Assembly: GCA_004292745.1 (NCBI GenBank) | Contig: RDXH01000002.1 | Location: 1-55,383 of the forward strand | Origin: Oscillatoriales cyanobacterium | GTDB taxonomy: Bacteria; Cyanobacteriota; Cyanobacteriia; Cyanobacteriales; Microcoleaceae | Direction: 5' to 3' | Length of the DNA: 55,383 bases | Shown here: piece after piece, positions 4,169 to 35,835 of the stretch | Numbering within the stretch: position 1 is the first letter of the stretch | Layout: each line of letters opens with the position of its first letter | Notes under the pieces: model-generated | Seen by the model: only the letters and a program-made list of their open reading frames with translations | Told to the model about the DNA's origin: nothing | The model's database searches: none | Translations under genes and position numbers: made by a program

Positions 4169-4218
4169 CGGCGGTTGAAACCGCTACTACACAAACAAAG
4201 CCCGCCGACGCGGGCTAA
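4169..4218. repeat. Palindromic repeat, GGCGGTTGAAACCGC family
   Basis: Two short hairpins in series, cggcggttgaaaccg and gcccgccgacgcgggc, joined by a ctac.acaaacaaag spacer. The same arrangement recurs at 8681-8731, 10907-11080 and 29089-29227. It lies directly after the DUF2887 gene. Confidence 0.8.
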
Positions 4219-4255: not shown

Positions 4256-4420
4256 TTGTAGGGGCAATCCCCCCGTGGTTGCCCCTAGGGCGTGTTTTCA
4301 AACCCAAAGATCCCCCCAGCCCCCCTTAAAAAGGGGGGGAAAGAGTCTTTAAGTCCCCCTTTTTAAGGGGGATGCGAGGGGGATCTAAATCTTAAGGAGT
4401 AGTTTGAAAACACGCCCTAG
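4256..4420. repeat. G/C-run palindromic element (MITE-like)
   Basis: A non-coding element with inverted arms tagggcgtgttttcaaac (4286-4303) and its perfect complement (4402-4419), enclosing runs of C and G that pair again internally (4311-4345 with 4350-4385). A further small hairpin, ttgtaggggcaa...ttgcccctag, abuts its left side. Related C/G-run units occur at 11756-12116, 22905-23055, 51484-51606 and 55006-55172. No open reading frame; probably a non-autonomous repeat. Confidence 0.7.
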
Positions 4421-7953: not shown

Positions 7954-8706
7954 ATGAAAGCAAATCCAGGCGGAGAAATTGCCCCAGCAGAAGTCATGGG
8001 GCGGGACCAGTTAATTGCTGATTTGTGGGGAATTTTAGAGCAGCAAAGTGTCATATTGAGTGCCGAGCGCCGGATGGGCAAAACCTCAGTAATTAAGAAA
8101 ATGCGATCGGAAGCTACCGCAGATAAATTGCCGATTTATCGTGACTTAGAAGATGTTAAATCTCCCTTAGAATTTGTCGAGAAAGTCTTTCAGGATGTGG
8201 AAGCATATTTAACAGGTTTTAATCGCACCGCCAAGAAAAATCGCGGATTACTAAAACACTTGGGAGGAGCAGAATTTAGCGGTTTCAAGTTACCTGAAAT
8301 TGCCGCGCCCCACTGGAAAGCATTGCTGACTGAAACGATCGCAGATTTGGCAGAAAATCAAGACCGCAGAGTCATCTTATTTTGGGATGAAGTGCCGTAT
8401 ATGCTGGACAATATCGGCGATGCAGCGGCGATGGAACTGCTCGATACTTTGCGATCGCTCCGGCAGATGTACCCAGCCGTGAGAATAGTTTATACAGGTT
8501 CAATTGGCTTGCATCACGTCCTTGGTGTTCTCAGAAAAGCCGGCTATACAAACGACCCGATTAATGATATGTACGTCCAAGATGTGCCACCACTATCTGT
8601 TAAAGATGCCACGAATTTAGCCCGCAAATTGCTGGAGGGCGAAAATATTACAACACCGGATATTCAAGGAACAGTTAATCCGGCGGTTGAAACCGCGGCT
8701 ACATAA
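7954..8706 (+). pseudogene. P-loop ATPase (STAND/archaeal-type), 3'-truncated by a repeat
   Basis: 250 residues starting NPGGEIAPAEVMGRDQL, with Walker A as AERRMGKTS (about residues 46-54), Walker B as ILFWDEVPYM (about 145-154) and a sensor-like YTGSIGLHHV. Related cyanobacterial ATPases continue for well over 100 residues through a lid and winged helix; here the frame runs into a palindromic repeat at 8681 and ends with the repeat-encoded tail NPAVETAAT. The ATP site is intact but the C-terminal regulatory part is gone. It may belong to the same original gene as the wHTH/TPR part at 9076 or be a separate broken gene; I cannot decide. Confidence 0.65.
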
Positions 8707-10906: not shown

Positions 10907-11080
10907 GGCGATTGGAAATCGCGGCTACACAAACGATGTCCGCCTCCGCGGACGGAAGAAAAGAAATTCAACCCGCGCAGGCGGGTTTTGTGTGTGTAGA
11001 CGCGGTTTCAACCGCCGGGTTTATTCAACCCGCGGAGGCGGGTTTTGTATGTGTAGACGCGGTTTCAACCGCCGGGTTTT
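10907..11080. repeat. Cluster of palindromic repeats, GGCGGTTGAAACCGC family
   Basis: At least three units: gcgattggaaatcgcggctacac with tccgcctccgcgga, then two nearly identical copies of aacccgcg.aggcgggttt followed by tgtgtagacgcggtttcaac at 10968-11018 and 11027-11076. The last unit ends a few bases before the Uma2 remnant. Confidence 0.8.
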
Positions 11081-11371: not shown

Positions 11372-13059
11372 ATGCAAAATCCCCGCCAAATAGCCTTTCT
11401 CGCACTCCGCGAAGTCCACCGCCGGGGTGCATTTGCAGATGTCGCCCTCGATCGCACTTTTCGCAATTCTCAACTCACCGACCTCGATCGCCGTTTAGTC
11501 ACAGAATTAGTTTATGGTAGCGTCAGGAGAATGCGGGCGATCGACTTTATCATCGACAAACTAGCCACCAAAAAATCCTCCCAACAACCGCCAGATTTAC
11601 GTACAATCCTACATTTAGGCTTATATCAACTCCAATATCTCAACCACATCCCCCCCTCCGCCGCCGTCAACACCACCGTTCAACTAGCAAAAGAAAACGG
11701 CTTTTCAGGACTCAGCAGTTTTGTCAATGGTTTGTTGCGACAATATATTCGTTTAACCCCCCCAACCCCCCCTTACCAAGGGGGGGCTAAGAATAATCCT
11801 AATTCCCCTCAACAACCAGAGACTCAAACCACCTCTAATCCCCCCCCTTACCAAGGGGGGGCTAGGGGGGGTTTAAATCCCCAACCACAACCAGAGACTG
11901 AAACCCCCCCAACCCCCCCTGATCAAGGGGGGGCTAAGAATAGTCCTAATTCCCCTCAACAACCAGAGACTGAACCCCTCAACAACCAGAGACTGAAACC
12001 CCCCCAACCCCCCCTTACCAAGGGGGGGCTAAGAATAGTCCTAATTCCCCTCAACAACCAGAGACTAAAACCACCTCTAATCCCCCCCCTTACCAAGGGG
12101 GGGCTAGGGGGGGTTTAAATTCCTTAAAACTACCAGAAAACCCCATCCAACGCCTAGGAATTCTCCACAGTTTCCCCGACTGGATTATCGAAATGTGGAT
12201 CGAAGAACTAGGCGAAACCGAAACAGAACAACTCTGTGAATGGTTCAACCAATCCCCCACAATTGACCTCAGAATCAATCCTTTAAAAAGTACAATTCAC
12301 CAAATCGAAACCGCCTTCAAAGCCCAAAATATCAGCGTTAGCAGAATCCCACACTTACCCCAAGCCCTAAGACTAAACAGCAGCAGTGGCGCAATTCAAA
12401 ATCTCCCCGGATATAGTGAAGGTTGGTGGACAATCCAAGATAGTAGCGCTCAATTAGTCACCCATTTACTCGATCCGCAACCGGGAGAAACCATCATTGA
12501 TGCGTGCGCCGCACCGGGAGGAAAAACCACCCACATTGCCGAATTAATCGCAGATACAGGTAGGATTTATGCCTGCGACAAAACTGCAAATAGACTCAAA
12601 AGACTTAAAGAAAATGCAGACAGACTTCAGATGAAATCAATCCAAATTCATACCGGAGACAGCCGTCATTTTCCTGAGTTTATTAACCTAGCAGACAGAG
12701 TTTTATTAGATGCACCTTGTTCGGGCCTGGGTACCCTCCACCGTCGCGCCGACGCCCGTTGGCATCACACAGCCGAAAACATCCAGCAACAATCCCAACT
12801 GCAATCGGAATTGCTAACAAATTCAGCGACATTTGTCAAGTCCGGCGGCGTATTAGTTTACGCAACTTGCACGATTCATCCTTTAGAAAATGAACGAGTT
12901 GTGCGATCGTTCTTAGACAGCAATCCTGACTGGGAAATCGAACCGCCCACCATAGATTTACCAGTACAGCCATCACCGGAAGGATGGGTAAAAATTTGGC
13001 CCCATCGCCATCAAATGGACGGCTTTTTTATGGTGCGGTTAAAACGAGGTGAGAAATAA
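11372..13059 (+). pseudogene. rsmB: RsmB-like 16S rRNA m5C methyltransferase, frameshifted in a repeat-filled linker
   Basis: The first part (11372 to about 11755) encodes the NusB-like RNA-binding domain (RQIAFLALREVHRRGAFAD, YGSVRRMRAIDFIID). The second (about 12117-13059) encodes the methyltransferase with the SAM motif DACAAPGGKT, the DAPCSGLGTLHR loop and the catalytic Cys region YATCTIHPLENE. RsmB methylates C967 of 16S rRNA. Between them lie about 360 bases of C/G-run repeat. The N-terminal part is in frame 2 and the C-terminal part in frame 1; a 23-bp tandem duplication (unit starts at 11955 and 11978) accounts exactly for the shift. The first frame ends at 12118. Broken as it stands; sequencing error or slippage-based switching remains possible. 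RsmB is dispensable in other bacteria. Confidence 0.8.
11756..12116. repeat. C/G-run repeat array inside rsmB
   Basis: Five units of the form ccccccttaccaaggggggg separated by a spacer close to aattcccctcaacaaccaga. Each unit is a small hairpin of a C-run against a G-run. The array encodes PPYQGGA/PPLTKGG-type peptides according to frame and carries the 23-bp duplication that breaks the gene. Confidence 0.85.
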
Positions 13060-22333: not shown

Positions 22334-22405
22334 TAAGGGCATAGGGCATAGGGCATAGGGCATAGGGCATAGGGCATAGGGCATAGGGCATGGGGCATAG
22401 GGCAT
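22334..22405. repeat. Heptanucleotide minisatellite (GGGCATA)n
   Basis: About ten tandem copies of ggcatag with one variant (ggcatgg). Similar tracts lie at 35770-35835 (complementary strand, CCCCATG/CCCGATG) and 37725-37890. Such STRR tracts are common in filamentous cyanobacteria. Confidence 0.9.
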
Positions 22406-22488: not shown

Positions 22489-23946
22489 ATGGATTTTTAC
22501 TTAGGCATAGATTTTGGTACAACAGGAGTGCGATCGACTGCGATCGACTCCAGTCGCAATATACATAGTGAGAGCCAGTATGATTTCACTCACCATGAGG
22601 AACCAGCATCGGAATTGCCATCGCGCTGGGAGAATGCCCTCTGGGCGGTAATCGAGCAAATTCCCTTAGCCATTCGCCGTCAGATCCGGGCGATCGCCAT
22701 TGATGGCACTTCCTCCACGGTGATGCTATGTGATACCAAAGGTATACCCGTAGAGGCGCCAATTTTATACAACGATGGACGCGGTGTGGCGGTACTCGAT
22801 CGACTGCGGGCGATCGCACCAGCCCATCACACAGTATTAAACGCCACATCAAGTCTGGCAAAACTCCTGTGGTGGTTAGAGTGCAAGGAAAAAGACACAG
22901 CCCCTAGGGAGTGTGTTCAAACCTTCAAACCCGGAGATCCCCCCCAGCCCCCCTTAACAAGGGGGGGGAATTCACTCAAAGTCCCCCTTATTCCCCCCTT
23001 GGGGGGGGCAGGGGGGGGTGGGGATTTAGGGGGATCTCCGGTGCAAACAGCCCCAAGATTTTTCCTGCATCAAGCAGATTGGTTGTCCTTTTTACTACAC
23101 GGAAGATTGGGAATTAGCGACTATCACAATGCTCTGAAATTGGGTTACGATGTTGCCAATTTGTGCTATCCCCATTGGCTGACAGAGGGAATTGCGGGTG
23201 TTTCTGGGTCGATCGCCCCTACATTACCGCAAGTTGTCGCACCGGGAACGCCGATCGGACCTGTGACAGCAGAAATAGGCGATCGATTTGGCTTTCCCCG
23301 CGACTGTATAGTTTGTGCTGGCACTACCGATAGCATAGCAGCCTTTTTAGCTAGCGGCGTCAATTCTCCGGGGGAAGCAGTAACTTCTCTCGGTTCAACT
23401 TTAGCCCTCAAACTGTTAAGTTATACCCGTGTAGATGATGCCACCTACGGAATTTATAGTCATCGTTTCACCTCCCCTTCACAAGGGGGGGCTGGGGGGG
23501 TGTTGTGGTTAGTGGGAGGCGCTTCTAATACCGGAGGTGCTGTGCTGCGCCACTTTTTTACTGATACTGAATTGGACAATTATAGCCAACAAATTGACCC
23601 CCATCGACCGAGTTTGCTGGATTATTATCCATTGTTAAAAAAAGGCGATCGTTTTCCCAATAACGACCAAAATTTGCTTCCTAGATTAGAACCTCGTCCT
23701 GCTGATGCTGTGGAATTTTTGCACGGTTTGCTAGAAAGTATAGCCCGGATTGAAGGGCGGGGATATGAATTATTGCAGCAGTTTGGTGCAACTCCTTTGA
23801 CAAAGGTTTATACGGCTGGTGGTGGGGCAAAAAATCAGGTTTGGAGTGAGATCAGAAAGCGTTATTTGAAAGTTCCTGTGGTAACTCCGGTTCATACTGA
23901 TGCTGCTTATGGAAGTGCATTATTGGCGATGACAGTTGACTGTTGA
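22489..23946 (+). CDS. FGGY-family sugar kinase, likely D-ribulose kinase, with in-frame repeat insertions
   Basis: 485 residues. The ATPase fold shows the phosphate-1 motif GIDFGTTGVRSTAID at residue 5, the sugar-site region IAIDGTSSTVMLCD, and the late adenosine motif YTAGGGAKNQVWSEIR. It resembles the cyanobacterial/plant kinases shown to phosphorylate D-ribulose. Between LLWWLECKEKD and FFLHQADWLSFLLHG about 45 residues rich in Pro and Gly are extra, encoded by a C/G-run element (22905-23055); a second small extra, TSPSQGGAGG, is at 23470-23502. Frame is kept through both. Without them the length would be the usual 425-430. Activity is likely, as both lie between conserved blocks, but not certain. 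Confidence 0.85.
   Translation: MDFYLGIDFGTTGVRSTAIDSSRNIHSESQYDFTHHEEPASELPSRWENALWAVIEQIPLAIRRQIRAIAIDGTSSTVMLCDTKGIPVEAPILYNDGRGVAVLDRLRAIAPAHHTVLNATSSLAKLLWWLECKEKDTAPRECVQTFKPGDPPQPPLTRGGNSLKVPLIPPLGGAGGGGDLGGSPVQTAPRFFLHQADWLSFLLHGRLGISDYHNALKLGYDVANLCYPHWLTEGIAGVSGSIAPTLPQVVAPGTPIGPVTAEIGDRFGFPRDCIVCAGTTDSIAAFLASGVNSPGEAVTSLGSTLALKLLSYTRVDDATYGIYSHRFTSPSQGGAGGVLWLVGGASNTGGAVLRHFFTDTELDNYSQQIDPHRPSLLDYYPLLKKGDRFPNNDQNLLPRLEPRPADAVEFLHGLLESIARIEGRGYELLQQFGATPLTKVYTAGGGAKNQVWSEIRKRYLKVPVVTPVHTDAAYGSALLAMTVDC
22905..23055. repeat. C/G-run palindromic element inside the FGGY kinase gene
   Basis: Perfect 13-base inverted arms CCGGAGATCCCCC (22931-22943) and GGGGGATCTCCGG (23029-23041) enclose runs of C and G. 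Outer sequence cctagggagtgtgttcaaac resembles the arm tagggcgtgttttcaaac of the intergenic element at 4285-4420, so the two are related. Confidence 0.8.
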
Positions 23947-24079
23947 CGGTTGACTGTTGACGGTTGACTGTTGACAGTTGACAGTTGACAGTTTGAACAA
24001 TACCGATGCAACCGAAAACGATAATACCCTTCGACTACGCTCAGGGTAATCATTGCGGTTCCTGAGCGTAGTCGAAGGG
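23943..24079. repeat. TTGACNG minisatellite and CTTCGACTACGCTCAG inverted repeat
   Basis: About seven copies of gttgacg/gttgact at 23943-23993, starting inside the kinase stop region. Then an inverted repeat, cccttcgactacgctcagg (24027-24045) with cctgagcgtagtcgaaggg (24061-24079), a stem of about 19 bp with a 15-base loop. It could end transcription from both converging genes; no T-run follows. Confidence 0.7.
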
Positions 24080-29088: not shown

Positions 29089-29227
29089 CGGCGGTTTAAA
29101 CCGCGTCTTGTCAAACGATGTCCGCCTCCGCGGACTTAAGAGAATAGCCTAAAACATAATTTTCACCGCCTATTCTTTAACCCGCGGAGGCGGGTTTTGT
29201 CTGTATAGCCGCGGTTTCAACCGCCCG
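29089..29227. repeat. Palindromic repeat pair, GGCGGTTGAAACCGC family
   Basis: A left unit, cggcggtttaaaccgcg with tccgcctccgcgga, and a right unit, aacccgcggaggcgggtt with gccgcggtttcaaccgccc, in opposite orientation around a 45-base AT-rich core. The whole is one large inverted repeat (arms about 45 bases). Confidence 0.85.
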
Positions 29228-35750: not shown

Positions 35751-35835
35751 GACACTTCGACTACGCTCAGTGTCCGATGCCCCATGCCCCATGCCCCATG
35801 CCCGATGCCCCATGCCCGATGCCCCATGCCCCATT
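35751..35835. repeat. CTTCGACTACGCTCAG palindrome and (CCCCATG)n minisatellite
   Basis: acacttcgactacgctcagtgt (35751-35772) is an imperfect palindrome related to 24027-24079. It leads into tandem ccccatg/cccgatg units up to 35832. Located between ruvX and the DUF3727 gene. Confidence 0.75.

Follow-up and report, generated by a model that had tools for sequence, protein, structure and literature searches.

The window analysed here, a stretch of 55,383 nucleotides from the genome of a Microcoleus-like cyanobacterium (G000; the other genomes of the genus are numbered from G001 onward), contains a gene for an FGGY sugar kinase whose reading frame runs through a palindromic block with C/G runs.

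The kinase gene and its inserted block

The features of the gene, and the intergenic element with which the block was compared, are as follows (positions are those of the window).

4285..4420, no strand assigned: intergenic full copy, a core in a MITE-like shell that carries CTAG at either end and has GGGCGTGTTTTCAAAC.. as its terminal inverted repeats
22489..23946, + strand: open reading frame of the FGGY sugar kinase, SePSK/AtXK-1 type, host of the inserts; 485 aa, FGGY_N at residues 4-137 and FGGY_C at 326-481
22897..22907, + strand: left copy of the 11-nt near-direct repeat ACAGCCCC(T/A)AG that flanks the block; 91% identity between the copies, spacing 150
22908..23046, + strand: inserted block of the GATCCCCC family, with a degenerate outer end resembling that of the 4285-4420 element; missing from the 22-residue linkers of 5/26 genomes of the genus
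22931..22943, + strand: left perfect arm CCGGAGATCCCCC, 13 bases, exact reverse complement of the right arm
22936..22965, + strand: left GATCCCCC unit, tag plus CCCCCTTnnnAAGGGGG hairpin, from a scan of the window; the pattern was also counted in 386 genomes of the phylum
22993..23016, + strand: extra C/G hairpin of 24 nt (8 codons) in G000, absent from the otherwise similar G018 insert in the alignment
23029..23041, + strand: right perfect arm GGGGGATCTCCGG, 13 bases, exact reverse complement of the left arm
23047..23057, + strand: right copy of the 11-nt near-direct repeat; it occurs once in G019, which is without the block

The closest solved proteins are 5htr, a putative xylulose kinase of Arabidopsis (E 5.5e-127), and 5htn, a probable sugar kinase of Synechococcus elongatus (E 1.6e-112); AtXK-1 and SePSK are the names of these solved homologs of Arabidopsis and S. 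elongatus, respectively.

The block lies between LLWW and FLHQADW, two conserved segments of the kinase. Since the 11-nt near-direct repeats are 150 nt apart, it adds 50 codons: together with one flanking repeat it makes up 150 nt, corresponding to residues 137-186. The preliminary description had proposed an in-frame insert of about 45 residues at 22905-23055. The open frame was confirmed, the size had to be corrected to about 50 residues, and the extent is slightly larger, from 22897 or 22908 to 23046 or 23057.

The inverted arms at 22931-22943 and 23029-23041, described earlier as perfect over 13 bases, are indeed exact reverse complements. They were rejected as proof of structure on their own, because arms of at least 13 bases were reached in 6/300 dinucleotide shuffles and are thus not very rare where C/G runs abound. 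The fold of 22926-23046 (z -3.7, 0/200 shuffles as good) is less likely to be due to chance than the arms. The likeness to the intergenic element at 4285-4420, which had been noticed by inspection, holds over 93 nt with 78.5% identity (E 2e-18), and C/G runs like that at 22993-23016 are also present in several intergenic copies. It is the high copy number in the genome that places the reality of the block beyond doubt.

Copies and distribution of the GATCCCCC family

In the window genome (5.9 Mb) the block gave at least 79 BLAST matches at E up to 10, several of them being pieces of one copy; 40 of 272 candidates were scored, so that 79 is a lower bound. The half-element pattern GATCCCCCNNANNCCCCCTTNNNAAGGGGG is matched exactly in 106 places of the same genome, which bears out the expectation that the arm sequence is dispersed. 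It is present in 81/386 cyanobacterial genomes, sampled evenly across the phylum, and the reversed control pattern had no match anywhere in these 386 genomes. Within the genus, a peptide query representing one frame of the unit matched 29/29 genomes, with at least 2,712 matches at E up to 1 when summed over the genomes (at most 150 candidates scored in each). Among the matches listed, at least 11 are in stop-free open frames that are at least 250 residues long, two of these 11 being kinase copies. In plasmids, three partial matches were found, in Nostoc, Kovacikia and Allocoleopsis. An Rfam search returned 18 matches, all under the gathering score of the family concerned.

Both ends of the unit are GATC. 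Among the best 30 of the 79 matches in the window genome, the outer shells around the core are of at least three unlike kinds (TAGGGCGTGTTTTCAAAC..., GTGTCAACTTAAG... and TACCAATTTTTTATGAGG...), and in four loci (L008, L018, L023, L029) the first shell is nested in another core, clearly at CTAG in three of them. Terminal inverted repeats with target duplication were found for one shell of the intergenic copies, the kinase copy having degenerate ends only. As the core is common to three unlike shells, it is not merely the inside of one MITE.

Of the best 30 of the 79 places, only the copy in the kinase is enclosed in an open frame longer than 130 codons, which indicates that most of the family lies between genes and that the kinase copy is exceptional. 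In seven cores that were compared, the unit is stop-free in some frames, as set by the length of the loop and by CAG versus TAG/TAA. In four places (L020, L027 and the glcE genes of G011 and G019, see below) a REP lies within the first hairpin of the unit and partly replaces it.

State of the kinase loop in related genomes

The linker between the two conserved segments was read in 26/29 genomes of the genus, the window genome included, and its classes were sorted by eye from the DNA; the three others are G004 (kinase not found), G012 (a fragment) and G014 (gene on two contigs, split at this point). An insert-free linker of 22 residues is present in 5/26 (G016, G020, G023, G024, G025). The kinases of these genomes are about 425-438 aa long as against 485, close to the 425-430 aa predicted earlier for an insert-free version, and the relatives thus do not all share the same residues without a palindrome. 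The GATCCCCC block is found in 2/26, giving linkers of 73 residues in G000 and 65 in G018. A GTAG-type REP (GTAGGGGCGGTGCCCCCGTGCCCGCCC and its complement) occupies the linker as a doublet in 3/26 and in single or truncated form in 8/26; its peptide has matches in 28/29 genomes of the genus. The repeat GTGGAACAGGCATCTTGCCTG, whole or in part, was found in 5/26, in tandem in G002. It is dispersed through 28/29 genomes, with 75 copies in G000 and 562 in G007 when one mismatch is allowed. Eroded-looking remnants make up the remaining 3/26.

Some repeat or remnant is therefore present in this loop in 21/26 genomes, and the kinase frame is open in all 26. One loop of the kinase is occupied by three unrelated dispersed repeat families in different congeners. 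Among named records, Microcoleus sp. CAWBG506, which was assembled independently, carries a homologous block, in frame and 24 nt shorter, and the corresponding loop of Phormidium sp. LEGE 05292 holds half a GATCCCCC unit.

Outside the genus, the linker (length from SLAKL minus 4) was read in 25/32 family genomes. All but one of them have 23-29 residues, the exception having 36, and no repeat of the genus types is seen there by eye in any of the 25; six family genomes had no kinase match and G057 was left out. An ancient kinase domain that was lost elsewhere was rejected as an explanation of the extra residues, as the 22-residue linker was found in 7/7 read loci with proteobacterial titles (L079-L083, L085 and L087 out of eight, L086 being left out). 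The 10 residues at the linker position in the solved homolog 5htr also count against it.

Insertions at other sites

A second site in the kinase and a site in rsmB, both within the window, carry sequences of the GATCCCCC family.

11758..12116 (approximate), + strand: array of GATCCCCC half-units between the NusB and methyltransferase parts of rsmB, with the frame broken in the assembly
23467..23502 (approximate), + strand: second, shorter GATCCCCC-family unit in the kinase, encoding TSPSQGGAGG in a turn between two strands

The turn after YSHR in the kinase holds inserts in 10/26 genomes of the genus. By eye, six of these genomes, G000 and five relatives, have a short GATCCCCC-family unit, and the remaining ones GTAG-REP-like or other sequences.

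The glcE gene, with an FAD_binding_4 domain (by Pfam), has a loop after LDWGGLV that is 29 residues long in seven genomes and 33-34 in four, including G000. A whole core in frame is found in this loop in G005, G006, G016 and G028. G011 and G019 have a core whose first hairpin holds a REP, in frame, and G013, G022 and G027 have partial cores. The contig of G015 starts inside a core, and G004, G007, G010 and G014 have other forms; the survey was made without G003, G008, G009 and G026 (the last having the gene on separate contigs). Stop codons occur in the matched stretch of glcE, one each in G019 and G022, three in G008, and one in the N-terminal piece in G000 and G018.

In rsmB, which has the domains NusB and Methyltr_RsmB-F, the stretch between the two parts was read in 26/29 genomes (G003, G008 and G017 left out). 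It has 41 residues in 14/29 genomes and is lengthened in frame to 52-149 residues in eight. The lengthening is out of frame in 4/12 such genes (G000, G004, G007, G028; the break in G004 spans an assembly gap), which means that either tolerance has limits or some of the assemblies are wrong. In the window as assembled rsmB appears as two open reading frames, the NusB part at 11372-12118 and the methyltransferase part at 12193-13059, and the frame changes where there is a 23-nt tandem duplication, near 11963-12008.

Further in-frame copies in long open reading frames were found in a CHAT-like protein (G010, G020, G023) and a TPR-like protein (G024), both labelled by eye, and in shikimate dehydrogenase (G009, by Pfam). 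The encoded peptides differ: DPPQPPLTRG in the kinase and glcE, PPTPPYQGG in rsmB, and SPSQGGAGG at the second kinase site. The second kinase loop, glcE and rsmB behave like the first kinase loop.

Order of events in the kinase loop

When the insert columns are left out, the kinase tree pairs G018 with G017 as sisters (100/97), and G000 is next to them (100/100). Mapping of the loop states on this tree gives 11 changes (8 when the outgroups are treated as empty and eroded remnants as REP) against a shuffled mean of 18.3, so the states are clustered. As they are clustered and support is weak on 10/28 inner branches, independent gains were not counted.

G017 has a REP instead of the block, and the right end of the block, CAAACAGCCCCAAGG, is retained there as in G000 and G018, its last base differing in G000. 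The block of G000 contains 24 nt more of C/G hairpin than that of G018. The simplest account would be a single arrival of the block before the split of G000, G017 and G018, followed by its replacement in G017.

The stretch of G018 that matches the 11-nt repeat in the alignment is ACAGCCCCAAG on both sides of the block, and G019 has ACAGCCCCAAG once, without the block. The single occurrence in G019 could be an empty target or a leftover after loss. The direct repeats could accordingly be a target duplication, decayed remnants of REPs or the degenerate ends of the element itself; target duplication is not claimed, because G019 is compatible with both an empty target and loss.

Effect on the protein and selection

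The AlphaFold2 model of the kinase, built on an alignment of 21 sequences, has a mean pLDDT of 82.3. Values below 50 occur only at 135-186 and 333-336, the two insert sites, of which the former lies between the helix 122-136 and the strand 191-194 and the latter between the strands 322-327 and 339-346. The best PDB matches of the model are 5htr and the S. elongatus kinase entries, with a TM-score to the target of 0.83-0.87. The predicted fold of the enzyme is thus kept despite the inserts, and the inserted residues probably form a floppy, disordered loop rich in Pro and Gly.

Outside the inserts, dN/dS is 0.43 for G000 and G018, 0.30 for G000 and G017, and 0.36 for G017 and G018, the median being 0.16 over 40 pairs with dS below 0.25 (these three pairs included); a slightly different choice of columns gave 0.44, 0.31 and 0.36 for the three pairs. 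The ratios remain below 1, and the gene is still constrained. The clade with the insert has the highest values among the 25 closest pairs printed; mild relaxation in this clade is therefore possible, and the raised ratio in part speaks against complete harmlessness of the insert.

Origin and maintenance of the insert

The likely explanation of the locus is that a non-autonomous palindromic repeat inserted in a permissive loop of the kinase and has been kept there as a selfish, roughly neutral, translated passenger. Its arrival would most simply be dated to the ancestor that the window genome shares with its two closest relatives. The unit could have been carried at least in part by MITE-like shells, or by some transposase. 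Since it is stop-free in some frames, part of its insertions would be readable. Selection would then remove the copies that shift the frame or carry a stop, leaving stop-free variants, that is, those with CAG instead of TAG/TAA at the fourth codon of the unit in the frame used. A hairpin, once present, may draw further insertions, replacements and expansions. The GTAG family could be moved by Y1 transposases, as GTAG repeats adjoin 1/10 Y1 genes and a Y1-like open reading frame in G017.

Arrival by template switching during replication or by gene conversion from another copy, primed by C/G hairpins, would explain the internal changes between close relatives, such as the 24 nt by which G000 and G018 differ and the exchange seen in G017. 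The expansion of arrays in rsmB and the REPs in, and partly replacing, the first hairpin of the unit at four places also point in this direction. The insert-free states and the whole cores found in three shells at many loci fit insertion better for the first arrival, and this route is considered unlikely for it. Erroneous joining of a repeat into the gene has to be kept in mind in a draft genome of 408 contigs, as C/G-run repeats are hard to assemble and the kinase of G014 is split over two contigs at the same point. However, on either side of the block the window contig goes on into the remaining parts of the kinase. A relative that was assembled independently also has this block, with matching ends and with substitutions of its own. 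An artefact is therefore barely credible.

The insert could also mark a dying gene, and the dN/dS of 0.30-0.43 among G000, G017 and G018 as against a median of 0.16 would suit such a decay. But the ratio is still well below 1 and the frame is open in all 26 genomes read. The ratio tends to be inflated at low dS, and the three pairs in question have the three lowest dS values; decay of the kinase is very unlikely. Co-option of the inserted residues, for example as a disordered linker altering the stability, oligomers or regulation of the kinase, could be considered in view of the open, in-frame insert in two genomes and the repeat or remnant in the loop of 21/26. It is most improbable, given that the insert sequence is wholly different between congeners (three families) and absent from five, that the residues track the DNA of the repeat and not a conserved peptide, and that the insert has low confidence in the AlphaFold2 model.

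The REPs in the first hairpin of the unit (L020, L027 and two glcE genes) suggest that hairpins may attract insertions, although four cases are no proof. It is conceivable, if somewhat doubtful, that in Microcoleus and its near relatives certain loops of conserved enzymes serve as landing pads, in which, after one hairpin has arrived, unrelated palindromes insert, replace one another and multiply, filtered for an open frame. If this were true, hairpins would be the actual insertion target, coding palindromes would be self-recruiting, and proteins would grow by successive small selfish elements.

Relation to known repeats

The Rickettsia palindromic elements (RPE), reportedly described by Ogata in 2000 and 2002 (cited in PMC10969869), are the closest analogy in behaviour: in both cases palindromic repeats of about 150 bp are read in frame within genes of varied function. 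Here, in-frame palindromes occur in the conserved kinase and glcE genes, in 8/12 lengthened rsmB genes, in shikimate dehydrogenase and in others. The comparison with RPE, already drawn in the preliminary description, therefore stands for behaviour and fails for membership, as a CGTC end is lacking and the repeat is read in more than one frame. The GATCCCCC repeats differ further in being cyanobacterial and in sharing single loops with unrelated families. The RPEs of R. conorii are reported to end in CGTC (PMC3733652); by eye, CGTC is absent from 22897-23057. A conserved encoded peptide, given as a feature of RPEs (PMC10969869), was not found either, the peptides varying by gene and site.

In the former source, GTAG and CGTC palindromes are reported from many bacteria, GTAG palindromes also from cyanobacteria, some of them within ORFs, and different REPs are placed at about one site of recB in two species of Xanthomonas (PMC3733652). 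Consequently, neither translated palindromes outside Rickettsia nor a shared site is new as such. PMC10969869 treats RPEs as an unusually frequent case, similar events elsewhere being conceivable, and PMC3116915 describes REPINs, with Nostoc punctiforme among the genomes. The GATCCCCC units resemble the REPs and REPINs that go with RAYT transposases (PMC3733652, PMC3116915): hairpin units, single or as inverted doublets, present in high copy number and in some cases within ORFs. The likeness to GTAG REPs concerns the second family at the kinase loop, which ends in GTAG and adjoins a Y1-transposase gene; the GATCCCCC hairpin has no GTAG tag. At the ten Y1_Tnp loci of the window genome, with about 2-3 kb examined around each, GTAGGGGC repeats were found at 1/10 and GATCCCCC at 0/10.

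In having terminal inverted repeats at CTAG, the intergenic GATCCCCC copies are like a MITE derived from an IS; Nezha is named as a MITE in two of the sources (PMC3733652, PMC10969869).

The small dispersed repeats (SDRs) of cyanobacteria are said, in the account of Elhai from 2008, to be very small, mobile, present in minitransposons and nested in one another, and by this description they resemble the GATCCCCC core nested in three shells. We know of no translated insertion into protein genes in that account. As to the first supposition, that the family has no named counterpart, six exact unit strings of 13-17 bases were found in open-access text in a single paper, on a human RNA. Another text search for the unit's sequence matched 412 papers, and the 20 titles listed looked unrelated. 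In open-access text no paper was found on the GATCCCCC unit or on cyanobacterial enzyme loops occupied by one repeat after another.

Rickettsia is the best-known case of translated palindromic elements, in-gene REPs being scattered elsewhere. In a free-living genus with many sequenced species, one loop can be seen empty, occupied by one family or by another, nested, eroded and replaced. With these states side by side, it can be asked how selfish repeats create protein sequence, how far they are tolerated and whether hairpins attract hairpins. The other, unrelated hairpins in the same loop of sister species mean that protein length is reshaped by short mobile repeats. For annotators, Pro/Gly-rich stretches such as PPQPPLTRG and CRGGAPVPAL in these proteomes can be repeat DNA.

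Other repeats in and near the window

Several repeats adjoin the kinase gene. A tandem repeat of GGCATAG lies at 22335-22405, between an ORF like phosphoglycerate mutase (labelled by eye) and the kinase. The 3' end of the kinase, with its stop codon, lies in heptamer repeats (TTGACNG) at 23936-23989, and the C-termini of the congeners differ. Just past the gene, at 24030-24076, there is an inverted repeat TTCGACTACGCTCA/TGAGCGTAGTCGAA, one arm of which occurs again at 35756-35769; this is probably a further dispersed palindrome.

At locus L163 (G017:C23) an ORF resembling a Y1 transposase (by eye) shares its frame with GTAG REPs that lie upstream and are translated as GTGAPPLRIGWGGHGGTAPT; unknown bases make up a stretch before the ORF. 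Palindromes of the CGGTTGAAACCG type are present in the window at 4171-4184, 8683-8696, 11002-11015, 11059-11072 and 29211-29224. A similar hairpin flanks the Y1 transposase at L171, and it looks as though these palindromes were another REP family with its own transposase.
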